DNA of 21,108 bases from a virus. Position 1 is the stretch's first letter. Every line of letters begins with the position of its first letter. The DNA lies in the IMG/VR virus record IMGVR_UViG_3300027800_000054, positions 1 through 21,108 of that record, one strand, 5' to 3'. The notes below the pieces were generated by a model. The model saw only the letters and a list, made by a program, of their open reading frames with translations, had not been told where the DNA came from and did no database searches. This document shows, piece by piece, positions 3,391 to 17,897 of the stretch. The translations under genes were made by a program, and so were the position numbers.

Positions 3391-4013
3391 CGGCCACCTC
3401 CGGCGAGGTGATTGATCTGGTGCGCCAGCTCTTTGCGGAAGCGGAGATCCGCGCTGGCCATGATGGCGTCTTGGCGGACGGAGTTGCCGTAGAAAGCCTG
3501 GAGGCTGGGGCCGGTTTCTTGGATGAGCTTGCCGCGTTCGGCCCCCGGGCGCGCAAATACGCCAAGACGCCCACGGACCATTGCGACAAACAATTTCGAT
3601 CTTGTTTCGACCTGCGGCGCGTTGCCAAAAGACTTGCCGCCCCGCCCCAGGCGGTAGCTCACGGCCTTGTACTTGCTCGGCAGACGTCCCTTTTGCGCGG
3701 TGATGCGCAGCGGGCTCACCTTGTACTCGGTCAGTGGCAGGCGCTTGGTGTCGACCTTAACCGCGCCGGAGAGTCGGCTGGCGGATTGCCAACGGCACGC
3801 GGCCACCGTGATGCCCTTGCGGATGGTTCCGGCTCTGAGCACCGTGCGGGAGCGCAGATCCGCCACGATATCTGTGCGGGTGCCGTTGAGCGCCTTATTG
3901 ATGGCGCGGGCAAGGGCCTTGCGCTGCGCACCGGGGATGCTGTCCAGGGAGGATAGCTCGGCGCGGATCTTGCCCTCGTTATAATCGAGCTTCAGCTCGA
4001 GCAGGCCGCTCAT
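3387..4013 (-). CDS. Minor tail protein Z-like (gpZ family)
   Basis: A 208-residue protein. The ATG at 4013 overlaps the Rz stop (ATGA) and has GTGGAG five bases upstream. After an N-terminal strand (MSGLLELKLDYNEGK) comes the family-typical helix AQRKALARAINKALNGTRTD, a basic middle with KAVSYRLGRGGKSFG, and VFARPGAERGKLIQETGP before a C-terminal helix. Lambda gpZ is about 192 residues and is needed at the last step of tail completion and DNA positioning, so size and layout fit. It is the first morphogenesis gene after the lysis cassette. The initiation overlap suggests its translation depends on that of Rz. Confidence 0.75.
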   Translation of the reverse strand: MSGLLELKLDYNEGKIRAELSSLDSIPGAQRKALARAINKALNGTRTDIVADLRSRTVLRAGTIRKGITVAACRWQSASRLSGAVKVDTKRLPLTEYKVSPLRITAQKGRLPSKYKAVSYRLGRGGKSFGNAPQVETRSKLFVAMVRGRLGVFARPGAERGKLIQETGPSLQAFYGNSVRQDAIMASADLRFRKELAHQINHLAGGGR

Positions 4014-4609
4014 TTGCTCCACGCCTCCAAGAGCTGCACAGCCTTGTCCGCGCGTGCGGCATGATCGCCGTAGGCGCGGCCAACGTCGCGCAGCCAATAG
4101 GCCAGGTCCTCTATGGATGCGTCCTTGCATACCCCGCCTGGAGCGGATCCGGGGACGTCGGTTTGGTTTCCAGCTCCGCCGGTACCGTCTGCCTCGGCTG
4201 CACAAGGGGAGTGGAGGCCAAAGGCACGGTTGAACAGGACCACAAGGCGAGGGCCAATAACGCAATCAGTAGGCACGTCACGCACCGCATCGGGGATACT
4301 CCTGGTGATGTTGTCGCGCGTTGCGGACAGCTCCGCACGGGTGGCGATGAGATCGGCGGAAATTTTGTTGCCCTGGGCCACCAGCTCTTCCGAGCGCTTG
4401 AGGGCCTTGGCCAGGGAATCGGACACGGCGGTGGCATGCGCGGCCTTGAGCTCGTTCAGCTCGGCCTTGCCCGTGGCCGTGGCGGCGGCGGAGCCAACGC
4501 GGTTGCCCCAGAGGTAGCAGCCGATGCCCGTAAGCAGCAGGGCCACCACGACGGCCAGCACAACGATGGCCTTGCGATCGGAGCCGGAAAGCAGATCAAG
4601 GCCGGTCAT
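4010..4609 (-). CDS. Inner-membrane spanin subunit (Rz-like)
   Basis: A 199-residue protein with ATG at 4609 that overlaps the transglycosylase stop (ATGA) and has GAGGG upstream. Residues about 13-35 form one transmembrane segment (KAIVVLAVVVALLLTGIG). A long helical periplasmic part rich in Ala, Glu and Lys (about 45-105) follows, then the motif DCVIGPRLVVLFNRAFG seen in many Rz-type proteins, and a C-terminal helix. Rz-type spanins span the periplasm and pair with a lipoprotein partner to disrupt the outer membrane, so the host is Gram-negative. The partner is encoded inside this gene in the +1 frame (see Rz1-like entry). The C-terminal ~60 residues make it longer than lambda Rz (153). Confidence 0.8.
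   Translation of the reverse strand: MTGLDLLSGSDRKAIVVLAVVVALLLTGIGCYLWGNRVGSAAATATGKAELNELKAAHATAVSDSLAKALKRSEELVAQGNKISADLIATRAELSATRDNITRSIPDAVRDVPTDCVIGPRLVVLFNRAFGLHSPCAAEADGTGGAGNQTDVPGSAPGGVCKDASIEDLAYWLRDVGRAYGDHAARADKAVQLLEAWSK
4111..4290 (-). CDS. Outer-membrane spanin lipoprotein (Rz1-like), embedded in Rz
   Basis: A 59-residue reading frame wholly inside the Rz-like gene, in its +1 frame. The ATG at 4290 has AGGAG eight bases upstream. It begins MRCVTCLLIALLALALWSCS, a short basic start, a hydrophobic stretch and a lipobox-like L-W-S-C, so Cys19 would be lipidated; Trp at the -2 position is atypical. The mature part is short and proline-rich (eight Pro in about 40 residues), like lambda Rz1. 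It would sit on the inner face of the outer membrane and bind the C terminus of Rz. The upstream part of the same open frame (from 4437) is an artefact and was left out. Confidence 0.75.
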   Translation of the reverse strand: MRCVTCLLIALLALALWSCSTVPLASTPLVQPRQTVPAELETKPTSPDPLQAGYARTHP

Positions 4610-5259
4610 TGCGCGCCCTCCATGCTTACGCCGGGGCCCCAGCTGCGGTAGCGCGGCTGGTGCACGACGATGACCATATATGGGTACTCGTGGTTCTCGC
4701 GGACGAATTGCGGGGCGCGTCCGCCATTGGCGCGTTCCACGTTGCCCCACCAGCGGACGGCGTCCAGGCCCTGGGCTTTTGCCGCTGCGCGGTCGCGGGG
4801 GATCCAGCCCGGCCCGCCGTTGTAGGCGGAGAGGGTGAAGGCCCAGCGGTCGGCCTCGGTGGCGGCGAAGGACATGGACTCGTAGAGCGCCTTGTCGTAG
4901 CGGCACAGGGCCAAGAGCGCCCAGGCGGGGTTGAGCGGCGCGGCCTTGCCGAGTTCGCGGGGGTACTGGCGGGCCATGTCGCGCGCGGTACCCGGCGTGA
5001 ACTGCGCCAGACCAGAGGCGTAAGCGCTGCGGGCGTTGGCGTCCCAGCCGCTTTCCTGGTGGACCTGCGCGGCCAGCACGGCCACCGGAGCACCCAGGCC
5101 GAACACGTAGCGGGCGCTGCGGATGAGATCGCGCCGGTAGCGCTCCGCCTGGGCCGGGTAGCTGGCGGCTTTGCCATCGGTAAGCAGCACGCCCAGCACC
5201 ACGCACGCGGCCAAAGCCAGCACGAGAGCGGCAAAGGCGCGGCGCTCGGAACAGGGCAT
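4606..5259 (-). CDS. Endolysin: lytic transglycosylase (SLT fold)
   Basis: A 217-residue protein whose ATG at 5259 overlaps the stop of the upstream membrane protein (TGATG). Residues about 8-27 are hydrophobic (FAALVLALAACVVLGVLL) and would act as a signal peptide or signal anchor. The catalytic region is AAQVHQESGWDANARSAYAS followed by GLAQFTPGTARDM; Glu69 in HQESGW is the expected general acid of SLT-type transglycosylases, and SGLAQFTP is the usual second motif. A third motif, LSAYNGGPGW, lies further on. It would cleave the glycan strands of peptidoglycan without needing water. Placed between holin-like proteins and spanins, it is the endolysin of the phage and not a virion enzyme. Confidence 0.88.
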   Translation of the reverse strand: MPCSERRAFAALVLALAACVVLGVLLTDGKAASYPAQAERYRRDLIRSARYVFGLGAPVAVLAAQVHQESGWDANARSAYASGLAQFTPGTARDMARQYPRELGKAAPLNPAWALLALCRYDKALYESMSFAATEADRWAFTLSAYNGGPGWIPRDRAAAKAQGLDAVRWWGNVERANGGRAPQFVRENHEYPYMVIVVHQPRYRSWGPGVSMEGAQ

Positions 5260-5603
5260 CACAGCGCGAGCCCTCCGGCCAGCATGGTGACGCCGATGAC
5301 GAGGGCACGGCGATACATTGCGTGAACAAAAAGCGCGCGCAACTCGGGAGGCCAGGAATCTGCCCAAGGGCTGCGGAAGTCTCCGGGCCTGGCGTAGTAG
5401 AAGACCACCATGTCGACGATGAGGCCCAGGCAGGCGAAGCCGCACAGAAGCCAGATCTTGAAGGTGGCCACGCCCGCGTTTTCGCGCCAGCTGGGCAGGA
5501 TGAGGAACATGAGCAGCAGCGGGATCTGTGTCATCATGGCCAGGGCCACAAGCTGCCAGGGGCGCAAGGCGTTGAGTTTGGAGATGAGGTTGGAGATATT
5601 CAT
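5259..5603 (-). CDS. Membrane protein, candidate holin
   Basis: A 114-residue protein with ATG at 5603 after GGAGGCAGCAA. It overlaps its neighbours at both ends. Three hydrophobic segments are visible: about 17-37 (LVALAMMTQIPLLLMFLILP), 49-70 (KIWLLCGFACLGLIVDMVVF) and 98-114 (RRALVIGVTMLAGGLAL). The loop between the second and third is polar and proline-containing. Three membrane segments and a position directly before the transglycosylase fit a class I holin, which would form inner-membrane lesions at a set time. No family was recognised from sequence, so the holin role is inferred from topology and place. Confidence 0.55.
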   Translation of the reverse strand: MNISNLISKLNALRPWQLVALAMMTQIPLLLMFLILPSWRENAGVATFKIWLLCGFACLGLIVDMVVFYYARPGDFRSPWADSWPPELRALFVHAMYRRALVIGVTMLAGGLAL

Positions 5604-7801: not shown

Positions 7802-8623
7802 GCGGACCTCCTCGTTGATGTGGTTAACGAACGATTCGCGGCTTTCGATGCGGTCAATCAGCCCAACGCCGAGAGCCTCACCTGCGAGAAAGACTTTGCC
7901 ATCGGCCACGGACAAGGCACCGGCCCTATCCACTTTGCGGCCGGTGGAGACAGCCTCGAGGAACAGATCGTACAAAGCGTCTGTCCCGGACTGGAGATAC
8001 GCGCGGGCCTCGTCTGTGAGGGGTTCCACGCTGTTGCCCATGGCCTTGTATTTGCCAGCGGTGATGACGGTGAAGGTGTAGCCAATGCTTTCGGCCAAGC
8101 GGGACGTCTCAACATGGACCATAACCACGCCGATGGAGCCGATCTGTGCCGTTGCGGGTGCGGCTATTTCCTTGGCGCAGGAACCAATCCAGTAGGCGGC
8201 GCTGGCCATGAGCCCGTTGGCGAAGGCGTAAAGGGGTTTTTCTTCGGAAGCGGCGCGGATGATGTCAGCCAGCTCCTCGGTTCCGTCGACTGTGCCGCCA
8301 GGGGAGTCGATATCAAGCATGATGGCGCGCACACGGGGGTTGCTGGCAGCCAGCTGCACGACTTGGCCGATGCGGCGCATGGAGGTGAGGCACCAATCAC
8401 CACGCTTGCTCAAGGGGCCAACGACCGGAACAATGGCCAATGTGCCGACCAACTCATACGGCAGGTCGCCTGGATCCTGCTGCCCGGGGAATAAGCCCAT
8501 CGGGCCTGCGGCTTCCGTGGGCTGGTCCAGCTTGCTGGTGTGGTGAAGCGTCATCTGTGTACACAGAGACTCCAACTCGCGTGGGCGCATGGCCCACAAA
8601 GAGGGGAAAAGAGCAGTGCTCAT
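7295..8623 (-). CDS. S49-family head maturation protease with C-terminal scaffold (lambda gpC-like)
   Basis: A 442-residue protein. The ATG at 8623 overlaps the portal stop (ATGA) and has AGGAGG upstream. Residues about 60-265 are an SppA-like S49 domain: IMLDIDSPGGTVDG near 101-114, the nucleophile Ser141 in NGLMASAAYWIGS, and a likely catalytic Lys193 in TAGKYKAMGNS. Residues from about 275 are a charged, mainly helical scaffold region (SEHRAEIETELKAEASK), a Gln/Pro linker near 355-370 and a basic C terminus. In lambda gpC the protease domain is fused to the scaffold, and the scaffold is also made alone from an internal start; the same is visible here. It works inside the prohead to remove the scaffold. 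Confidence 0.92.
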   Translation of the reverse strand: MSTALFPSLWAMRPRELESLCTQMTLHHTSKLDQPTEAAGPMGLFPGQQDPGDLPYELVGTLAIVPVVGPLSKRGDWCLTSMRRIGQVVQLAASNPRVRAIMLDIDSPGGTVDGTEELADIIRAASEEKPLYAFANGLMASAAYWIGSCAKEIAAPATAQIGSIGVVMVHVETSRLAESIGYTFTVITAGKYKAMGNSVEPLTDEARAYLQSGTDALYDLFLEAVSTGRKVDRAGALSVADGKVFLAGEALGVGLIDRIESRESFVNHINEEVRMDLTTLKKEAPGALSEHRAEIETELKAEASKTLQEAVAVEQQRCIGVCGVLMGQDASQKLAGVLAAGVSVEQASSMAALLGGTQQTPPQDGATAPDAQGKMLAALQNAHGQGLAPMAGKDVSEQSFEALVEARMSEAKCSRAAAIVHVARTNPEAHKAYTNGLSRKEK

Positions 8624-10188
8624 TCGGAGAGGTCCTCCTCACCCGACGCCGTCTCGGGCTGTGTGCGGTTGTTGGGAGCAACGACGGCTGGCACCTGGAC
8701 GAGCCCAGCTTTGCGGATAGCGCGATCTTCGCGCTCCAGGGTGCGCAGCACCGCGTCCCAATCCTTGCCACCGGCATGGCATATGCCCGTGCGTGTCTCG
8801 GTGAAGGTTTCCAGGCCAAGGGATTCGGCCTTGCGCTCCTTGACTGGATCGATGTTTCCGCGAGGCGGACGGGTCCAAATTGCAGCGCACCACGCACGCG
8901 TGGATTCGTAAAACCCTGGCGCGTTTTTTGGCATGACGAGCAGGCCGCGCAGGTAGGCCTCCTCCATCACCATGGTCCAAACCCGCTGCAAATAGCTGCG
9001 GATGAACCAGTCTTGATACATGGTGTGAAGTTTCCAGACCTCGAGCAGGGCGGCGCGAGCGGAGGAGTAATTGGTCTTGGAAAAGTCCTTGGCGACGATC
9101 TCGTAAGGCTGGCCCGTGGAAGCGGCGGCCATGCGGGTCATGCGCGTGTAAAAGGCGTCGAAGGACGGCGCGGGGCGGTTGTTGGAAATGGTCTGGATCT
9201 TGTCCCCGGGCTTTCCCCTAAGAACAAGGCCAGGGTTGACCTCCTCGGGGTACCGACGGCTTGAGGGGCTCTCTCCGCTCGGGGCATGCCCGGGCAGAGC
9301 TTGTCCGTCCATGCTATTTCCCGGCGACTCGATAAAAACCGTGAAGCACGCGGCGATGAGCGCGCCCACCAGCTCATAATCAACGTAATCGGCCAGGTCG
9401 CGGAAGTGCTTCATGGCTGGGGAAAGCAGAGACTCGCCGCGCAGTTGCTCCGGCATGCTTGCATGGCGCTGGTGCAGGCAGGTGTACCGGTGGCCGACTT
9501 TGCGGGGGACAAAGCGGAAGTCTTTGCTGGTGAGGCCGAGCAACATACGGCCTTCGCGCGGCTCGGCTATCCAATAGCCAAGAGGAGCATTGCCTATGCC
9601 GAGCTGCACGCCAGCGCGGATTGTGGGGTCCGTCATCTTGTCGGATGGAGTGCGCAGCCGGGCTGGGTGCAGAGACTGGAGCGCCAGGCCAAAGGTTCGG
9701 CATGGGTCTTTTGCGGGGTCCAGCCAGACCGGCAGATGCAAAAATTCGCCGGTGACGAACATGGAGCGTATGGCTTGGTACTGCAGATCGTCGAAATGGT
9801 CCGTGTCCGCGGCATCGGCCTCTGCGCACCAAATCTCCCAGGCGGCCTCTGCACTCTCTGCAAAGTCGTTTGCAGCCTCGGGCGCGATGCCGAGGGCGGA
9901 TAGTTTAGGGTAAGATTGGGGGCGGAGCCCAGGGCCTGCCACATTGAGCGCCAGGCTGTCCACGCAAGAGGCCGCATGCCCATCGCTGCCGACAAGGGAC
10001 TCGGCCCTGGCCATGACCAAATCGAGGGAGCGGGCTTCGTCGTAGCGGCTGGAGCGACGCGGACGGAAATTTTCCAGTGTGCCAGAGTGCCCGGAAGATG
10101 CTTTGCGGATTTGCTCCACAACGCCGCCCATCATTTGGGCCGCAAGGGCTATGCGGTCCATGTGGCCGCCGGGTGCGGGAGCTACCAC
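8620..10188 (-). CDS. Portal protein (lambda gpB-like)
   Basis: A 522-residue protein if started at the GTG at 10188, which overlaps the end of gpW and has GGAGG five bases upstream. An ATG at 10161 is the alternative but lacks a good site. Lambda gpB is 533 residues. Visible portal features include SRYDEARSLDLVMARAESLV and HAASCVDSLALNVAGPGLRP near the N terminus, then LIAACFTVFIESPGNSMDG, the clip-region segment PEEVNPGLVLRGKPGDKIQT, and the helix-rich MAAASTGQPYEIVAKDFSKT followed by NYSSARAALLEVWK. Twelve copies would form the DNA entry ring at the portal vertex, binding the terminase. Stop and protease start overlap (ATGA). Confidence 0.92.
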   Translation of the reverse strand: MVAPAPGGHMDRIALAAQMMGGVVEQIRKASSGHSGTLENFRPRRSSRYDEARSLDLVMARAESLVGSDGHAASCVDSLALNVAGPGLRPQSYPKLSALGIAPEAANDFAESAEAAWEIWCAEADAADTDHFDDLQYQAIRSMFVTGEFLHLPVWLDPAKDPCRTFGLALQSLHPARLRTPSDKMTDPTIRAGVQLGIGNAPLGYWIAEPREGRMLLGLTSKDFRFVPRKVGHRYTCLHQRHASMPEQLRGESLLSPAMKHFRDLADYVDYELVGALIAACFTVFIESPGNSMDGQALPGHAPSGESPSSRRYPEEVNPGLVLRGKPGDKIQTISNNRPAPSFDAFYTRMTRMAAASTGQPYEIVAKDFSKTNYSSARAALLEVWKLHTMYQDWFIRSYLQRVWTMVMEEAYLRGLLVMPKNAPGFYESTRAWCAAIWTRPPRGNIDPVKERKAESLGLETFTETRTGICHAGGKDWDAVLRTLEREDRAIRKAGLVQVPAVVAPNNRTQPETASGEEDLSE

Positions 10189-10412
10189 GAGCCCCTCCGA
10201 GGAATGCCCGGAGTAAACGACGGACCGCTGCGCCCACAAAGCTTGGCCTCTTCCTGGTCAAGCCAATCCAGAGTGTCGCGGATCTCTTTAGCTGTCATCT
10301 TACGGACAGAGCGGCCAGCGATGGAGTATTCCTGCGCGGCGGCTACGCCGAGGAGTGCGCTTTTAAGAGCTTCCCTGTGCAGGGCTATTTCTTCGCGGGT
10401 GAAGGTTGCCAT
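10182..10412 (-). CDS. Head-tail joining protein gpW-like
   Basis: A 76-residue protein from the ATG at 10412. It reads MATFTREEIALHREALKSAL, then YSIAGRSVRKMTAKEIRDTL and DWLDQEEAKL, matching the gpW layout: two helices around a short hairpin carrying the 'S.AGR.V....T...I...L.WL..E' pattern. Lambda gpW is 68 residues and seals the portal after packaging. The extra C-terminal ~15 residues are loose and overlap the portal start. The start lacks a clear Shine-Dalgarno, unusual for this cluster, and lies right beside the cargo segment. A longer frame from 10463 exists but also has no site and would add a non-family N terminus. Confidence 0.82.
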   Translation of the reverse strand: MATFTREEIALHREALKSALLGVAAAQEYSIAGRSVRKMTAKEIRDTLDWLDQEEAKLCGRSGPSFTPGIPRRGSW

Positions 10413-10528
10413 GTGTAAATGGCTAGCACAGAGGGCGAGGCAGGGAAGTGCACGTGAGAGCAACGTGGGGACGATGGAGACGAAAAGATAGAGCCAACTT
10501 TTGCTTGTAACTTCATGATATTTTGATG

Positions 10529-10557
10529 TTGACTGAACACAACCTTAATGCTTCAAT
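10529..10557 (+). promoter_or_regulatory. Predicted promoter for the plus-strand cargo gene
   Basis: TTGACT (10529-10534) and TTCAAT (10552-10557) are separated by exactly 17 bases, matching the -35 consensus at five of six and the -10 at four of six. Transcription would start near 10564, about 100 bases before the ATG at 10667. The surrounding 10490-10660 stretch is markedly AT-rich compared with the phage genes. The site is predicted by eye only. Confidence 0.4.
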
Positions 10558-10666
10558 TGGTGCGATATTTTCTTGAGACTAGCCTTACTGACTAAAATAG
10601 AAAGTTTTACGAATCAACACTTAGCGAGCTAACTTATTGGGATGGATCTTAGGGAGGTATGAGAAG

Positions 10667-12880
10667 ATGGTGGCCTGGGAAAAAATTAAACATTTCGTAA
10701 CATCAGTTATTTACAAAGCTTTTCACGATTTAACCGTAAGAGCAATAGGTTTTGTAGTACTTGTAGCATTTTGTGCTGTTGCGGCATATTGGGCTGAAGT
10801 GACAAGCCTGTACATGAGGCTAGCTAAAAGCCATGAGTACAAAAGTAGGATCGTTGTTCTCGTAGCACATCTCGCGGGAGACGATTCAGACGGAAGCTAT
10901 ACCAATAAACTCATTGATGCTCTCAATAGCTCTGATGCTGTTAGAGCGATCCTTTTGAACAATACGCTTGAAGTTAAGAACGATTCTATTGACAGACATG
11001 AGGCTCAAGATTCTCTTTCTGCGAAGGCACAGTTAGAGCTCAATGCCTCGGATGCGGATATTATCCTGTTCGGCAAATTTGATAAAAATACTCGAGCCAT
11101 AAGCTGTTTATTAAAGCGAGATGGGAAAAATAGGACTGCCAGCACCCTCGAGATTAGGGACTCCAATGGAAACGTTGCATTTGGCAATACTTCCTTGATG
11201 GTTCAGGAATTAGTTATTATTGGATATATAAATTTTTTGAGTGATTATGTGAATAGATGGCAAGATGAAGAGCAAAAAACAGGCAGGCAAACATTAAGTC
11301 TAACGGCTAAGCTAGTGAGATTTGCAGAATCAATTTGGAACACCGACAAGTCCATCAATGCCCCAGTGGTACAGATCCGCGACAAAATGTTTGGCATCAT
11401 GAGGCTTGTGGGCAACTTTCCCGCCTGGCAGCAATCAAAGGCGTTTGCTGTGATGGCCGCGGCTCAAGGGATTCTGGCAGATCAGACGCATGATCAAGCC
11501 TTGCAAGCAGACGCTCTTGCATATGAGGTCGAGGCTATGCGTGTTATTGAAAATGTTGACGTGTCTAAAGAGTGGCGCCATGCCGTATATAGCGGTCTTG
11601 CCACTCGGTATTATTCAACCGGATTGGCTGGGGACAACGTTGATCAATTGAAAGAAGCCGCACGCTTATACAATGCGTGCTGGTCAGATTTATCTACAGA
11701 TTCTGGGTCTGAACAGAATATAACAGCGAGACTCGGTGAGGTCGAAACATACGTTGCTTTGATCTCGCTTGCCCCAGAGGACAGGGATGCGGAAGCTTGG
11801 TTCAACTCCTTGACTAAGCCCGTAACGGAATTCAAAAATGTGCCGCTATCGCAGGATGCCTCAAAATGGATGCTTTACCGAGTTGCTCAAGTTATAACGA
11901 ATTGCATTCAGGGGAGTTTCCGTGACAAAGGACATTCGAAAGAGCATTTTTCGAAAGCATTGGCCTTTTGCGATGAGTTAGAAAGAGAAAGTCCAAGTAT
12001 TAAGAATAAGGTTTTGGCATTTTCTGTATACCAGTATAAGGCATGGGCAGAAGCGGGGCTATCGACATCATATTCTTCAAATGAACCTGAAACAGCGGCT
12101 CATCTTTTGACAGCGATAGATTCAATGGACAAGTGTAAAACTTTGGTCGGAAGTAATGAACTTTTTATAAAGTTGCCTATGCAAAAAATTCAAGCTGGGA
12201 TTTACTTGCATATTCTTGGCGCAGGGGTTTTCCCATTTCGCGTTCTTTATGATGCAGAGGCGTTTACAAAAGATCGATTGAGTGAAATTAACTACAGGTC
12301 TTATCCTGAATTGTGGTGTGAATTTGTAATATTGAGAAGTTTTTCCTTAGCAAGACTTTCTGACTATTATTCTCACGGGGATAAATTTTTGCAAAACATA
12401 TTCCTTGATTGGCATAATTATGGTGAAGCATTGCTTGAATTTAATAGGTTGAAGCCGGTGTTCAATACAGTCAAGCTGACGCGTCATAATGTGTCATATT
12501 TAAAGTTCTACCCATTCTTGATGGGGTATTTAGCAGAATTGGACTCTAGCAGTGCCGGGACTGCGCTGGGGTATGAGGCCATACCAGCTTACGAGAATAT
12601 GGTTGCAACGTTATACCAGTTAAATATGCCCGCCGAGGCTGTCGTGAATAAATTGTATTTGGCTGAACTGATGTTTACGTTGTCGAAGCGCCAAAATTGC
12701 AGCAGAAAAACTGATATGATTGCTGGTGTTCGTAGGTATTGCGCGGAAATCCTATCCGAAAACCAACTTATCGTAGATGAGCAAACGCGGTCCAGGGCGC
12801 AGACGGTCCTTAATAAGCTTGAGTCTCAACACCCAAAGCCCATCCATGTTGCTTGGAAGGGTGCCTTTTGCTTTGGATAG
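10667..12880 (+). CDS. Membrane-anchored helical-repeat cargo protein, unknown function
   Basis: The only large plus-strand gene: 737 residues from the ATG at 10667, which has GGGAGGT about eight bases upstream. A TTG at 10637 would add ten codons. Residues about 25-45 form one membrane segment (RAIGFVVLVAFCAVAAYWAE). Residues 60-190 look like a compact alpha/beta domain: RIVVLVAHLAGDDSDGSYTN, a helix, then ASDADIILFGKFDKNTRAIS and several strands. From about 210 to the end the protein is almost all helix with TPR-like spacing (DQLKEAARLYNACWSDL; IPAYENMVATLYQLNMPAEA). I recall similar 'membrane segment, VxVA.L.GDD..G..T domain, TPR-like helices' proteins in other bacteria without assigned function. 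Base composition is much more AT-rich than the phage genes, suggesting separate acquisition. A sensor or scaffold at the membrane is possible but unproven. Confidence 0.8.
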   Translation: MVAWEKIKHFVTSVIYKAFHDLTVRAIGFVVLVAFCAVAAYWAEVTSLYMRLAKSHEYKSRIVVLVAHLAGDDSDGSYTNKLIDALNSSDAVRAILLNNTLEVKNDSIDRHEAQDSLSAKAQLELNASDADIILFGKFDKNTRAISCLLKRDGKNRTASTLEIRDSNGNVAFGNTSLMVQELVIIGYINFLSDYVNRWQDEEQKTGRQTLSLTAKLVRFAESIWNTDKSINAPVVQIRDKMFGIMRLVGNFPAWQQSKAFAVMAAAQGILADQTHDQALQADALAYEVEAMRVIENVDVSKEWRHAVYSGLATRYYSTGLAGDNVDQLKEAARLYNACWSDLSTDSGSEQNITARLGEVETYVALISLAPEDRDAEAWFNSLTKPVTEFKNVPLSQDASKWMLYRVAQVITNCIQGSFRDKGHSKEHFSKALAFCDELERESPSIKNKVLAFSVYQYKAWAEAGLSTSYSSNEPETAAHLLTAIDSMDKCKTLVGSNELFIKLPMQKIQAGIYLHILGAGVFPFRVLYDAEAFTKDRLSEINYRSYPELWCEFVILRSFSLARLSDYYSHGDKFLQNIFLDWHNYGEALLEFNRLKPVFNTVKLTRHNVSYLKFYPFLMGYLAELDSSSAGTALGYEAIPAYENMVATLYQLNMPAEAVVNKLYLAELMFTLSKRQNCSRKTDMIAGVRRYCAEILSENQLIVDEQTRSRAQTVLNKLESQHPKPIHVAWKGAFCFG

Positions 12881-12931
12881 TTCGTCTTTCAGCGCATTGT
12901 GAAACGCATGGATACTCTTCTCCGCCATTTT

Positions 12932-12979
12932 CCAGACCCCTCGCATCGAAGATGCGAGGGGTCTGGTCTTGTCTTTTTT
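12932..12979 (+). terminator. Intrinsic terminator of the plus-strand cargo gene
   Basis: A perfect 16-bp stem (12932-12947 with 12951-12966, arm CCAGACCCCTCGCATC) with a three-base GAA loop, followed on the plus strand by TCTTGTCTTTTTT. It begins 51 bases after the stop of the plus-strand gene and lies in the gap before the end of the convergent NTPase gene. On the minus strand the stem is followed by AAAATGG, so it lacks a U tract and is directional for the plus-strand gene, although the stem itself may slow polymerase from either side. Confidence 0.9.
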
Positions 12980-13003
12980 AGCGTCTCTAACTTCCACAGG
13001 CGA

Positions 13004-14725
13004 TTATCGACTTTTGTCCAACTCTTCCTGGGTGATGTTAAATCGATTTATAACCCGGAAGCGATTGATTGGACATTCGTTACCTATTCTCAGTAAAGCA
13101 TTATGAACATTGGAGCCAATTATTTTATATTTTTCTATACCAGTGAATTGTGTGCAAGCACGAACGAAATTGGTCAAGTTACTTCCCTTATGTTGCCTAA
13201 AGCAGTTGTAAAAATCATCGGCTGTCGCGTTTTGCAAAGCTTCAATGTGCTCATCATCCCAGTCGTTTGTCGAAATTCTGGTGATCGCTTGGTCAAGGGT
13301 GGGTGACATTTTTGCCTTAGCATGCAGCTCCTGGCAGCGTTGTCGCAGGATTGGGTCTGTGTCGTGGAGCTGGTTGTGGGGGCTCTTCAAATCAAACAAT
13401 GCCATCTCATCCTTTCGAACTGCACTGTACTCAATGATAAGTTTGTCCGCAAAGTCATCCTGGCCTAGTTCGCGTAGCACGATCACCAGCCCGTTGAGGA
13501 AGCGTAGACTCATAAAGTGTATATGCTTTTCACATTTTGTACGCACTACTTCTATGAATTCATCTGTGTTGTTGTCGAAGGAATTGTTCAGAGCATCCCA
13601 TATCGAGTTGAGATCCGCTTGATCTTGAGCGTTTTGAAGCTGGGCGTCCCATTTTTGGGCCTCTTCAACGAATCTGGTTTCTTCCAGATAGCCCTGTTCA
13701 ATGATTGCTTGAATCGTCAGGTCGAAATCCTCGACAAGTGTGAAGCCATAATTGTGGAGCAGCGTCTCCCATCTCTCGTGTTGAGGCTCCTTTTCTGAAC
13801 CAGATTTTTTGCCAAGCAATGAGCTATAGGGATTCCATTCGATCAAAAACTCTAGGGTTGGTTTCTGCTCATTCCTCTCATAGTAACACCAAGCGAACAG
13901 TACAAGGATTCGTACGGCCCGCTCCATGACCTGTGGTTTTAGCGCTTCTACCTTAGCATGCATGAGCTTTGCTATTTTGACGATTATTCGTAGCACACGT
14001 ATGTTCGTCAAACCTAGTGCTTTCGCATGCGCCACGATGTTCTCGTGGTAGGGGGTGTCCCCCTGCACGGCAATTGCTACGGACTCCTGTGATGTTGGGG
14101 CGTAGAGTAGTTCTATCTCAATGACTTTCTCCCGATACTTTTCGTAGATATTTTTCTTGTTTCCGAGGTTCTCTTCATTGAAAATCAGAACGACCTTGCA
14201 CTTTTTTTTCTCCTTGAGCTCATTGATGAAGCCCATGAGTTCTTCGGAGGTAAAGGTATTTTCATCGAGGCGCTCGAAATCGTCCAGGCAGATCACTGCA
14301 TTCATGATCCTCTGAGATACGAATGCCTCAAACGCACGAGGGAGATTTTTAATCCAAGGAATGTCGCCGAAAGGACTATACTCCTTGTGTTTAGCAAAAT
14401 ACTTGGTGCACCATCCCGCTGCAGCCACTAAGTCTTCCGGCAACCACACGTTGATATTGCCTATTCTCCTGGGGGGCTTTGGCTCGGGCGCTTTGAAGTC
14501 CTGTACACTCGCGTATAGCGCAATGCTCAGTTCACGTTTGGACGCGATGCCGAACAAGGACGCGTAACAGTACTGGGTTGGTTTAAGTGAGCTGCCAAGT
14601 TCTTTGATGAGGCTGTCCCAAAAGTGGGTTTTGCCAACCCCCCAGGATCCTTTGAGCGCAAGCACGCCTAGGTCCTCACGGGTGAGAAAGTCCGCGGCGA
14701 TTTCTTTCACGGTTGCTATGGTCAC
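13004..14725 (-). CDS. KAP-like P-loop NTPase, cargo gene
   Basis: A 573-residue protein starting at a GTG (14725) with AGGAG eight bases upstream. Walker A is GSWGVGKT at residues 26-33, right at the N terminus. Y-C-Y-A-S-L-F-G at about 52-59 is a motif common next to the P-loop in this group. Walker B is AVICLDDFERL (143-153), with Asp148/Asp149. CKVVLIFNEENLG (176-188) would carry the sensor Asn. The 'K.LDDFER.' form and a long helical C-terminal half (about 215-573) fit KAP-type STAND-like NTPases. Family members are often found in mobile elements, some in phage exclusion or defence loci. No membrane insertion is obvious in the NTPase domain, unlike classical KAP members. It converges with the plus-strand cargo gene. 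Function is unknown; a defence or exclusion role is inference. Confidence 0.8.
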   Translation of the reverse strand: MTIATVKEIAADFLTREDLGVLALKGSWGVGKTHFWDSLIKELGSSLKPTQYCYASLFGIASKRELSIALYASVQDFKAPEPKPPRRIGNINVWLPEDLVAAAGWCTKYFAKHKEYSPFGDIPWIKNLPRAFEAFVSQRIMNAVICLDDFERLDENTFTSEELMGFINELKEKKKCKVVLIFNEENLGNKKNIYEKYREKVIEIELLYAPTSQESVAIAVQGDTPYHENIVAHAKALGLTNIRVLRIIVKIAKLMHAKVEALKPQVMERAVRILVLFAWCYYERNEQKPTLEFLIEWNPYSSLLGKKSGSEKEPQHERWETLLHNYGFTLVEDFDLTIQAIIEQGYLEETRFVEEAQKWDAQLQNAQDQADLNSIWDALNNSFDNNTDEFIEVVRTKCEKHIHFMSLRFLNGLVIVLRELGQDDFADKLIIEYSAVRKDEMALFDLKSPHNQLHDTDPILRQRCQELHAKAKMSPTLDQAITRISTNDWDDEHIEALQNATADDFYNCFRQHKGSNLTNFVRACTQFTGIEKYKIIGSNVHNALLRIGNECPINRFRVINRFNITQEELDKSR

Positions 14726-14767
14726 GATGGCGGCTCCTGATACGTGATGACTTTTATTTCTCCTGCG

Positions 14768-14796
14768 TTCATGCCAAAATCAGGGGCTTGGGTCAA
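14768..14796 (-). promoter_or_regulatory. Possible promoter for the KAP-like NTPase gene
   Basis: On the minus strand TTGACC (14796-14791, five of six) and CATGAA (14773-14768, three of six) are 17 bases apart in the 133-base gap between the helix-turn-helix gene and the NTPase. Transcription would begin near 14761, about 36 bases before the GTG. The -10 match is weak, so the gene may instead be read from the terminase transcript. Confidence 0.3.
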
Positions 14797-14858
14797 TGAC
14801 ATCCGCCTAAACGAGAGCGACGGCAGGCGTCCCCGAATGCATGATGTTGCGGCTCTCC

Positions 14859-15077
14859 TCAGCACTCTACCTTTTGGCGCTTGGTAAAACGCACCAAGCT
14901 CTTTTCCGTCACTCTTAAGCCTTTCACATCCCCGATGCGAAGGGCTTTTAGTTTTCCTGCGCCCACAAGCTTGTACACGAAGCTACGGGAACAGTTGAGC
15001 CGCTCCATGACCTGCACAACATTTAGCAGGCGACCTTCGGCGGTGCGGTCGTAGGGGACATTAACAGCGTTGCTCAT
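14859..15077 (-). CDS. Small helix-turn-helix DNA-binding protein (excisionase/AlpA-like)
   Basis: A 72-residue basic protein with ATG at 15077 and AGGAG just upstream, starting eight bases after the large terminase stop. Residues 17-45 (LLNVVQVMERLNCSRSFVYK then LVGAGKLKALRIG) are a MerR/excisionase-type helix-turn-helix: the 'V.E.L..S...VYKL...GKL.A.RIG' pattern is distinctive. The part after it (GLRVTEKSLVRFTKRQ) would form the wing and a short helix. Such proteins bind DNA and act as recombination directionality factors, AlpA-type activators or local regulators. There is no integrase nearby, so a regulator of the adjoining cargo gene or late operon is as likely as an excisionase. Confidence 0.8.
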   Translation of the reverse strand: MSNAVNVPYDRTAEGRLLNVVQVMERLNCSRSFVYKLVGAGKLKALRIGDVKGLRVTEKSLVRFTKRQKVEC

Positions 15078-15084
15078 GCTCTCC

Positions 15085-16962
15085 TCACAAAGTTTTGCGG
15101 TTCTGAAGCCAGGAAAGAGACCTGGTGAAGCGGGGACCAGGCTCGGGATTGTCCGTTGGTTCCGGGGACGGGTTGACTGAGGTTTCTGGCTTTTGCTCGA
15201 TGCGGCTGGCCAGCATCTGCAGGCTGGGCGTCCAGCTGGCGTTGACCGCGGCGAAGTTCATGCACAGGCAGTCGAAAAAGTGGTTGTCGCGGTGGATTTG
15301 CTCCCAGGCCACGGCGCCGCCCCGGCCGCGCATCAGGCGCTCCGAGGCCAGCTGGCGGGCGAGGCTTGCCTCTGCCTCCGCGTGGAGGATGATGGGCTGC
15401 TTGGAGCTGGGCTGCAGGCGCGCATGGACTAGGCCCTTGAAGTGGGCGGTATCGAGCTTGAAGAGCTGGAGCCCGCCGGGGATGGCCGCGTGGGAGCGGG
15501 GCATTTTGTCGATGACGCTCCACGTGACGGGCACGGTTTGCTGGTGGCTGGCGCCCTTGGTGGCGAAAATGCGGCCACGGCCATGCTCGCGCACGAACTG
15601 GTAGCACTCCTCCGTGCGGGTGAGCAGATCCACGTCCGTGCGGGTGCCGCCGGTATCGATGGGGGCCCGCCAGATCGGCAAAGGCGGCTCGCCAGATGCC
15701 TGGGGGAAGGTCGTTTCCCACACGAGCGCCTCAACATCGCAAAAATCGAGCAGGCGGCCGTAGTCGAGGACAAAGCACTCAAGCCCGGCGGTCCAGGCGC
15801 AGACCATGAACCAGAAGCCATGCTTCTGCATGTCGATGCCTGTGGTGAGGGCGATGAAGCCGCGCGGCACCACGCGAGCGGGCATGTCCGGGTTTATCAG
15901 GTCGAGGATCTTGCTTTCGTCCGTCTCCACCACCACGGGCTTGTAGGGCTTTGCCCAATAGCCGTTGACGTAGGCCTGTTTGACGTCGGGATCGTCCGAG
16001 GCCTCGGCCTTCATTTTCTCGGACAGGATCTCGGACAGGCTGACGGCGCGGGAAAGGATGGCGGGCAAGTGGAAGCCCACGCTTTTGGGGCGCGGCACGC
16101 TTTCTTCGGCCCGCCAGCGGCCAGCGGCCACGGCCACGTCGCGCATGTGGTCGGTCCACAAAAAGCCGCAGGCGGGGCACTTGTAGCGCGCCAGGGTGTC
16201 GCGCTTGATCTTTTGCGGGTCCACCGTGCTCGAGGTGCAAACGAGGCCGGACTCCTCCATGCGCGAAAAGGCGGAGCACGCCGGGCAGCGCGGCTCGTAG
16301 TGGCGCAGCTCGTCCGCATCGTGGACGGCTCGCCAGATGCTGGATTCCTCGCCCCCCACGGGCTTGCTGACGCGCAGGATTTTGCGCTTGTGGGAGTAGG
16401 AGCGCGTGCGCTCGAGGAGGTCGACCACGGGCACGCCCTGGCCCGCGAACTGCTTGTACAGGTCCTCCTCGTCCATGAAGAGATCTTGGATGGAGATGGA
16501 GGCGCGCTGGCTGGTGGACTGCGCGCTGGCCAGATGCAGGGCGGTGCCGTCGCGGAAGGACACGGCCCCGGTGCGGAACTTGCGCAGCAGGCGGCGCACG
16601 GGCGCGGTGCGGCGGAACAACGGCTTGAGTTTGGCTTCCACCATTTTGAGGATAGCGGGATCGTCCGGCATGGAGAGCATGCGCGGGCCGGGGCGGCGGT
16701 CGATGGTGTAGCCCATGCACGCGTACAGGAGCATGGTTTTGCCGCTCTGCGGGGTGCCGCACACGCGGACCTCCTCCACCCAGGGCTCGGCCCAGGTGTC
16801 CATGATGCCCACGGTGTAGGGGGTGACGTCGCGCCGCCAGCGGCTGCCCGAGGCCGGGCCATCGGGCACGATGAGATGCTCGGCCGCCCAGCTGGACGGC
16901 GACTGCTTGGGCAGGCGGCGGTAGATGTGCCGTTCGCCCGGGGTGAAGCGGAAGCTGGCCAT
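15085..16962 (-). CDS. Terminase large subunit (lambda gpA / GpA family)
   Basis: A 625-residue protein from the ATG at 16962 (GTGAGG about six bases upstream); ATGs at 16980 and 17064 are in frame but lie against or inside the previous gene. Lambda gpA is 641. The N-terminal ATPase has GTPQSGKT (residues 69-76) as Walker A and DLFMDEEDLY (160-169) as Walker B with catalytic Glu. Cys pairs CPAC (226-229) and CPAC (262-265), with Cys242 between, look like the zinc-binding insert common in the family. The nuclease domain opens with ALTTGIDMQKHGFWFMVCAW, where Asp377 is the likely first metal ligand. It cuts concatemeric DNA and powers its entry into the prohead with the small subunit and portal. 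Confidence 0.95.
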   Translation of the reverse strand: MASFRFTPGERHIYRRLPKQSPSSWAAEHLIVPDGPASGSRWRRDVTPYTVGIMDTWAEPWVEEVRVCGTPQSGKTMLLYACMGYTIDRRPGPRMLSMPDDPAILKMVEAKLKPLFRRTAPVRRLLRKFRTGAVSFRDGTALHLASAQSTSQRASISIQDLFMDEEDLYKQFAGQGVPVVDLLERTRSYSHKRKILRVSKPVGGEESSIWRAVHDADELRHYEPRCPACSAFSRMEESGLVCTSSTVDPQKIKRDTLARYKCPACGFLWTDHMRDVAVAAGRWRAEESVPRPKSVGFHLPAILSRAVSLSEILSEKMKAEASDDPDVKQAYVNGYWAKPYKPVVVETDESKILDLINPDMPARVVPRGFIALTTGIDMQKHGFWFMVCAWTAGLECFVLDYGRLLDFCDVEALVWETTFPQASGEPPLPIWRAPIDTGGTRTDVDLLTRTEECYQFVREHGRGRIFATKGASHQQTVPVTWSVIDKMPRSHAAIPGGLQLFKLDTAHFKGLVHARLQPSSKQPIILHAEAEASLARQLASERLMRGRGGAVAWEQIHRDNHFFDCLCMNFAAVNASWTPSLQMLASRIEQKPETSVNPSPEPTDNPEPGPRFTRSLSWLQNRKTL

Positions 16963-16970
16963 GGCAAACC

Positions 16971-17897
16971 TCACTCGCATAACCCACCAGCCAGAACGCA
17001 CGTCGGGCTGGGCATGTAGGCCATAAGGTCGAATTCCTTTCCTCCTCGCCGGGTCATGGCCCAACGCGCTACGCCGTCAATCTGCTGTGGTGTGGTGGCC
17101 GATGTATGGGACTGGTGGAAGAAGGTAGCCAGCTGGCCCTTGCTGGCTTTACGCACCAGCACCTCCCATGCGCGTATTTTGTCGATGGCCCAGGCATGTT
17201 CGAGGGTTATCTTGCGCAGCTCGGCCTTATTTGCGTTGATGCACGGGAAACACCCGACACGGCCAAAGCCCTGCGAGTAAAGCGGGTTGAGCGGAATGCC
17301 GTGCTTATGATGCATGGCCACCACATCCTGCACCGTCCAGGTGAGAATCGGGCGGTAGTCGGTCAGGCCTTCAAGCTCTGGAGATGGAGCGCTCTCGGCA
17401 TACTTCGAGCGGTTCAGCGACTCGTCTGCCCGCACCCCCTGCCAGGACCAGACCTCATGACCGGCCAGAACAAGAGGCTCCTGCACTTCGGTGAGGATGG
17501 GTGCGCGCTTGAGAAATTCTGTACAGAATTGGCGCTTGCGCGAGGGAAACAGCCCCTTCCACAAGCAGGCGTCTAGGAATGATTTGCCCGTGGGGTACAG
17601 GACATCCAGGGCGCGGGTTACCTGCTCCGGCGTCCAGCCCCTGCGCTCTGCCTTTTCGCTTTGCAGCCACGCCCTGCGCTTTTCGATGCGGGAGGAGAAG
17701 TCGGCGCGCACTGTGCGGATTTCCGGGCCACCTGTGCGGCGCGGAAGATCGGCAAGGTACTCGTAGACCACCGGATGTTCGTTGCCGGTGTCCGCGAACA
17801 CGGCCAGAAAGTCGCCCCCGGTCCGCTCCAGGGCCAGCAAGTATGTGGCGGTCGAGTCCTTGCCACCGGAGCAGGAAATGACATTAATGCGGCCCAT
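16971..17897 (-). CDS. PAPS-reductase-family PP-loop protein (CysH/DndC-like)
   Basis: A 308-residue protein with ATG at 17897 preceded by AGGGAG. The PP-loop motif SGGKDS is at residues 10-15, with VFADTGNEHP at 33-42. Then come FPSRKRQFCTEFLKR (117-131), GVRADESLNRS (154-164), DYRPILTWTVQDV (180-192) and NPLYSQGFGRVGCFPCI (204-220). Cys111, Cys125, Cys216 and Cys219 are candidates to hold an iron-sulfur cluster or zinc. The motifs place it in the large PAPS-reductase-like ATP pyrophosphatase family, which adenylates a substrate for sulfur or related chemistry; the 'PSR..QFCT..LK' and 'RVGC.PC' forms are frequent in phage members. True sulfate assimilation is unlikely; nucleic-acid modification is possible. 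It is unusual to find it between the terminase subunits. Confidence 0.88.
   Translation of the reverse strand: MGRINVISCSGGKDSTATYLLALERTGGDFLAVFADTGNEHPVVYEYLADLPRRTGGPEIRTVRADFSSRIEKRRAWLQSEKAERRGWTPEQVTRALDVLYPTGKSFLDACLWKGLFPSRKRQFCTEFLKRAPILTEVQEPLVLAGHEVWSWQGVRADESLNRSKYAESAPSPELEGLTDYRPILTWTVQDVVAMHHKHGIPLNPLYSQGFGRVGCFPCINANKAELRKITLEHAWAIDKIRAWEVLVRKASKGQLATFFHQSHTSATTPQQIDGVARWAMTRRGGKEFDLMAYMPSPTCVLAGGLCE

Follow-up and report, generated by a model that had tools for sequence, protein, structure and literature searches.

A variable cargo slot between terminase and gpW genes of sulfate-reducer phages, probably a defence and toxin-antitoxin hotspot, holds a KAP-type ATPase gene and an orphan membrane-protein gene

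In related temperate phages, the interval between the gene for the terminase large subunit (TerL), together with its adjoining HTH_17 gene, and the gpW gene is a variable cargo slot. In the window (the whole stretch of DNA that was analysed, 21,108 nucleotides) this slot holds two genes, one encoding a KAP-type AAA+ ATPase and one, ORF1, encoding an orphan membrane-anchored protein. The explanation that we regard as best, with a probability of about two in three, is that a variable defence and toxin-antitoxin (TA) cargo slot of temperate phages of dsrA-bearing sulfate reducers has been filled here by two independent genes, of which the KAP gene would encode a phage-exclusion ATPase. Coordinates are collected in Table 1.

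Table 1. Positions of the cargo island, its genes and its borders in the window
Feature	Position	Strand	Evidence or remark
Portal, lambda family	8620-10239	-	PF05136 5.5e-79
gpW head-tail adaptor, left slot border	10182-10412	-	phrog_118 2e-4
Cargo island, about 4.4 kb	10413-14858		AT-rich, bounded by the HTH_17 gene and gpW
ORF1, orphan membrane-anchored protein, 737 aa	10667-12880	+	Open frame with ribosome-binding site; antisense to late genes
N-terminal membrane helix predicted in ORF1, residues 22-40	10730-10786	+	Kyte-Doolittle 2.35 over 19 residues
Intrinsic terminator of ORF1	12932-12966	+	Perfect 16-bp stem, 3-nt loop, -33.4 kcal/mol, z -7.7
Stand-alone gene for a KAP-type AAA+ ATPase of 573 aa, putatively defensive	13004-14725	-	PF07693, phrog_4740, PADLOC PDC-S49
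Walker B motif AVICLDDFER, catalytic Glu included, about residues 143-152	14270-14299	-	D148, D149, R152 invariant, E151 at least 90%
Walker A GSWGVGKT, residues 26-33	14627-14650	-	G26, W28, G29, G31, K32 invariant, T33 at least 90% (82 relatives)
HTH_17 excisionase-like gene, right slot border	14859-15077	-	PF12728 1.4e-8
Terminase large subunit (gpA type)	15085-17064	-	PF05876 4.7e-45, PF20454 6.8e-44

The 21-kb virus record that forms the window has its late genes on the minus strand, in the order primase, TerS, PAPS reductase, TerL (gpA type), HTH_17, gpW, portal, S49-type protease and major head protein. These are followed by the lysis genes, the neck and tail terminator genes and the gene for a contractile tail sheath. 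The original prediction described an AT-rich island of about 4.4 kb with two convergent genes, set between a gpA-type large terminase and gpW in a phage with a lambda-type portal. Its coordinates were right and the difference in base composition is clear, the GC content being 0.449 in the island and 0.661 in the flank. ORF1 (plus strand) and the KAP gene (minus strand) converge and are separated by 123 bp. The border at gpW, which is 70% identical in one relative (L025), was also placed correctly, but the island does not touch the terminase gene directly, since the HTH_17 gene intervenes. This gene adjoins TerL in other phages too (L020, L191, L196, L197, L230-L232 and others), distant relatives among them, and it is therefore a phage core gene that lies outside the island. 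The true start of TerL may be further downstream than the listed one. Screening of the island borders for direct repeats or att-like ends revealed only short, chance-level repeats.

Two further parts of the late region were noted. Endolysin and Rz-like spanin genes (4010-5445) interrupt the structural genes, with the major head gene on one side and the tail genes on the other. The PAPS reductase gene (16971-17897), located between TerS and TerL, has a 90% identical copy in the same place in phage L016. The TerS-TerL gap of phages L017 and L018 measures 0.5-0.9 kb and gives no PAPS reductase match; in L191 and L193 TerS abuts TerL. These arrangements suggest that the TerS-TerL junction is a second, smaller cargo slot.

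Phages with a related TerL were collected from IMG/VR and from two genome sets, one of 395 genomes from a single phylum and the other of 347 genomes from an order belonging to that phylum; a related terminase was present in about 49 of these 347. The survey set consisted of the 47 phages, mostly prophages of sulfate reducers, in which both TerL and portal could be placed. Two phages outside this set (L191 and L015) also carry cargo, with no gpW or portal placed. The gene dsrA was detected above the curated cut-off in all ten genomes tested, nine of which have a TerL match, and the hosts are therefore dissimilatory sulfite reducers; we infer that they belong to the Desulfovibrionales.

As had been predicted, the terminase-gpW interval turned out to be variable when relatives were compared. 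It ranges from 52 to 5,811 bp (median 1,682) across the 47 phages. Nine intervals fall below 600 bp; they contain no more than one small open frame each and were counted as empty. Near-empty slots are found, for example, in L196, L197 and L257. The remaining 38 intervals all have a GC content below that of their own TerL flank (Wilcoxon p 8e-8). Neighbouring junctions are rigid, with standard deviations of length of 65-253 bp (65 bp for gpW-portal, 172 bp for S49-MCP), as against 1,727 bp for TerL-gpW. Fixed core flanks thus enclose content that varies or is lacking, as in a hotspot.

The identity of TerL to the window protein is uncorrelated with that of the portal (rho 0.02, p 0.92; 46 phages). 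Phage L226, for instance, has 71% identity in TerL and 26% in the portal, and L197 has 31% and 42%, respectively. Hence, the slot is also a breakpoint between packaging and capsid modules. Among the 46 relatives, two portal/capsid types were seen to be swapped behind related terminases (L226-L263 and others).

Slot genes were called by a simple longest-ORF rule, so their numbers are approximate; a few known pairs missed by this rule (L020) were added by hand. Several slots contain complete gene sets of known anti-phage systems: Septu in L231 (PADLOC; PtuA 1.5e-128 and PtuB 2.9e-56), PD-Lambda-5 A and B in both L230 and L264, AbiLi with AbiLii in L263 and, in L248, Hp1 with Hp2, a pair defined by PADLOC. 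In the slot of L258, a membrane-anchored KAP protein with a full-length PDC-S49 match (1.1e-75) is encoded beside an MBL-fold gene. The latter gene weakly matches LmuA, and the two (L258:3998-9137) are possibly an uncharacterised defence pair.

TA genes are also present. Pfam counts over 135 slot proteins included RelE, HicB, BrnT/BrnA, MqsR/MqsA, PemK and an HI1420-type antidote. Translations read by eye revealed BrnTA and a RelE pair in L020, one RelE-type pair each in L191 and L193, and a MazF-type pair in L194. Genes for BRO-N, IMS polymerase and transposase were found as well, and for most slot genes no function has been assigned. When the core head proteins of these loci (67 portals, proteases and major head proteins) were screened for comparison at the same threshold, PADLOC matched none of them. 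Seven phages or more carry complete defence systems and TA modules in the slot. The sequences point to a slot that is probably a defence and TA hotspot. No description of a defence hotspot at the terminase-gpW position was found in the literature within our reach, which excluded most subscription journals.

The KAP protein matches PF07693 with 33.5 bits (3.4e-8), above the Pfam cut-off of 20, and phrog_4740 over nearly its whole length (7e-55). PADLOC PDC-S49, a candidate system, matches residues 139-399 only (1.3e-21, 75 bits). An alignment of 82 members revealed that the motifs GxWGxGKT, SLFG, DDxER, N183 and NxR (N241, R243), as well as the C-terminal SxxNxxR motif (S551, N554, R557), are mostly invariant or nearly so. 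Walker A, Walker B and the sensor residues are intact in the window protein, with N183 and N241 invariant or conserved in at least 90% of members. The AF2 model (pLDDT 91, pTM 0.80) shows an AAA+ core over roughly the first 210 residues and, beyond it, an all-helical part. No transmembrane segment was detected: the highest hydropathy over 19 residues is 1.26, and the confident model has no membrane helix. The inserted transmembrane segments of KAP NTPases are thus missing from this protein. On the basis of sequence and model we filed it as a predicted soluble subfamily that is related to the KAP family and distinct from Tmn. Foldseek searches with the model returned generic AAA+ cores only, with ORC/Cdc6 as the best (TM 0.30) and NLRC4 further down; they gave no clue to the C-terminal part and no evident effector domain in the fold. 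The literature that could be consulted, with most subscription journals beyond reach, held nothing on this KAP subfamily or on PDC-S49, and no close relative of the subfamily with a tested activity was found.

Profile scans recovered 200 KAP relatives in GTDB genomes (80 of which were kept) and 78 in IMG/VR, and a protein search identified relatives in 117 plasmid records. Of the 52 non-redundant viral copies, 14 are located between P2-type replication gene A and portal gene Q and are convergent on Q. The gpA-Q interval is the site of P2 old/tin, an anti-phage hotspot (PMC9122126, PMC9519451). Other copies are carried by phage-plasmid-like Klebsiella plasmids, lie beside TA pairs (L026 and L078) or have as neighbours TIR genes, ThiF/JAB with DUF4238, an S8 peptidase with ATPase genes, or AAA genes. 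In L282 the KAP relative is the only gene of an AT-rich island within a GC-rich chromosome. No partner gene was common to the KAP loci across the settings compared, and from these sequences the KAP family appears to be a stand-alone one.

ORF1 has a ribosome-binding site, AGGGAGGT, upstream of its ATG. Its length, this site and its terminator indicate that it is a real gene. The terminator has a T-rich tail on the plus strand only and therefore ends ORF1. Its perfect 16-bp stem between the genes had been called correctly beforehand, and the membrane anchor predicted for ORF1 is supported by hydropathy. The separate promoters assumed for the two genes did not stand up: 10 promoter-like sites were predicted, against 6.7 ± 2.6 in shuffled sequences, and none lies just upstream of ORF1 or the KAP gene. 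The sole basis for an alpha/beta plus helical-repeat layout of ORF1 is a low-confidence single-sequence model (pLDDT 42.5), and a possible resemblance of its alpha/beta part to TolB-N or TPR-type sensor proteins was dropped.

No relative of ORF1 was found in Pfam, PHROGs, PADLOC, NCBIfam or PDB sequences, by tblastn of phages and plasmids, or in scans of IMG/VR and GTDB. The KAP loci, the other slots (phmmer of all loci) and 747 whole genomes gave none either, the genome searches having been run without a positive-control genome. Each genome search is weak when taken singly; together, the searches argue persuasively that ORF1 is rare. One apparent relative in IMG/VR was rejected because its contig is 99.99% identical to the window and thus not independent. 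A slot protein of 517 aa in L235 (L235:5669-7219) has an N-terminal hydrophobic segment, no Pfam match and no sequence similarity to ORF1. Phage L015, whose TerL is 80% identical, carries an AT-rich gene for a 480-aa membrane protein with no Pfam match (L015:2922-4361), which comes after TerL and a small cysteine-rich (zinc-ribbon-like) gene.

The original prediction treated ORF1 and the KAP gene as one defence-type module. In such a two-component anti-phage system the KAP protein would act as sensor or switch, with ORF1 as the effector in the membrane. The genes are adjacent and jointly fill the slot, ORF1 has an N-terminal membrane helix, and an ATPase with a membrane protein is a common defence layout. 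However, the two genes are convergent with a terminator in between, and when co-occurrence was examined no ORF1 relative turned up in the KAP loci, the other slots or the 747 genomes; KAP relatives are found alone or with varied neighbours. We consider a joint module improbable. What survives of that prediction is the slot with its likely purpose, which probably is defence, and the KAP family was found in known defence hotspots; the link between the two genes probably does not hold. Still further from the evidence, and hardly credible, is a role of the two genes in virion assembly or DNA packaging, as the position of an ATPase next to the terminase and the KAP gene on the late-gene strand might suggest. 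Relatives with an otherwise similar gene order have near-empty slots, the GC content of the island is much lower, and KAP relatives are also found on plasmids and by themselves in chromosomes. Both genes are absent from nearly all relatives, so a morphogenesis role was rejected; they are probably accessory, as originally proposed.

A more substantial, though still unlikely, alternative is a neutral or general moron site produced by packaging-capsid recombination, which would collect random accessory genes with no anti-phage role (for example, genes for plasmid-like maintenance or a benefit under host stress). The slot is a mosaic breakpoint, and many of its genes have no known domain or encode BRO-N, IMS polymerase or transposase. 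With the majority of its genes lacking an assigned function, the slot could be a general cargo site. Such a site is difficult to reconcile with the recurrence, in seven phages or more, of TA modules and complete defence systems when core proteins gave no match, or with the independent occurrence of the KAP family in the P2 defence hotspot. We therefore prefer a defence and TA slot filled by two independent genes.

The slot lies at the mosaic junction between the genes for packaging (TerS, TerL, HTH) and those for the capsid (gpW, portal, protease, major head protein). The ATPase motifs, together with the company that the family keeps, lead us to infer an anti-phage activity for the KAP gene, whose most likely job, as far as can be read from its sequence, is single-gene phage exclusion. 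In a lysogen, the KAP ATPase would be kept inactive by its nucleotide state. Its long helical C-terminal part might recognise a product of an invading phage, upon which the protein would oligomerise with ATP. By analogy with other single-gene prophage exclusion ATPases, the invader's replication would then be blocked or the cell would be aborted. ORF1 would be a separate membrane-anchored gene, for which envelope exclusion seems the likeliest among several guesses. Because ORF1 points in the opposite direction to the late operon and is ended by a terminator of its own, it may be expressible in the lysogen.

Prophage defence hotspots are the source of many anti-phage systems. Those whose descriptions we found in the literature are from P2-like prophages and P4 satellites of E. 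coli. The slot, with its fixed flanks (TerL-HTH and gpW-portal), is easy to harvest computationally, and 38 of the 47 slots contain cargo, mostly unnamed. Slot membership offers a plain way to rank genes of unknown function, such as the KAP subfamily and ORF1, for testing. These findings suggest that defence genes accumulate at the boundaries between modules of mosaic phages. We can only tentatively entertain the bolder view that both genes are new systems, with a soluble KAP/AAA+ single-gene defence, ORF1 as founder of a membrane-anchored superinfection-exclusion family, and the slot as an undescribed anti-phage reservoir.

Among known systems, PDC-S49 resembles the KAP gene in being a single gene; the match was counted over the P-loop and middle part, and a full-length PDC-S49 protein occupies the same slot in L258. 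The window protein differs in matching residues 139-399 only and in having no counterpart to the membrane region at the N-terminus of the L258 protein. The family phrog_4740, matched over nearly the whole length, has no assigned function. PifA is a KAP-family exclusion ATPase that is likewise encoded by a single gene on mobile elements. Tmn, a KAP NTPase with two transmembrane segments, blocks T2, P1 and other phages (PMC11846954). It shares with the window protein the KAP P-loop NTPase, the single gene and the location on mobile elements; however, its two transmembrane segments have no counterpart in the window protein, for which no PADLOC Tmn match was listed. At the level of the locus, the closest parallels are the P2 old/tin (gpA-gpQ) and P4 psu-int hotspots, which are also variable prophage loci between core genes with diverse defence fillings (PMC9122126, PMC9519451). 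The slot described here differs from them in lying between TerL-HTH and gpW-portal, in another phage family, that of sulfate-reducer phages.
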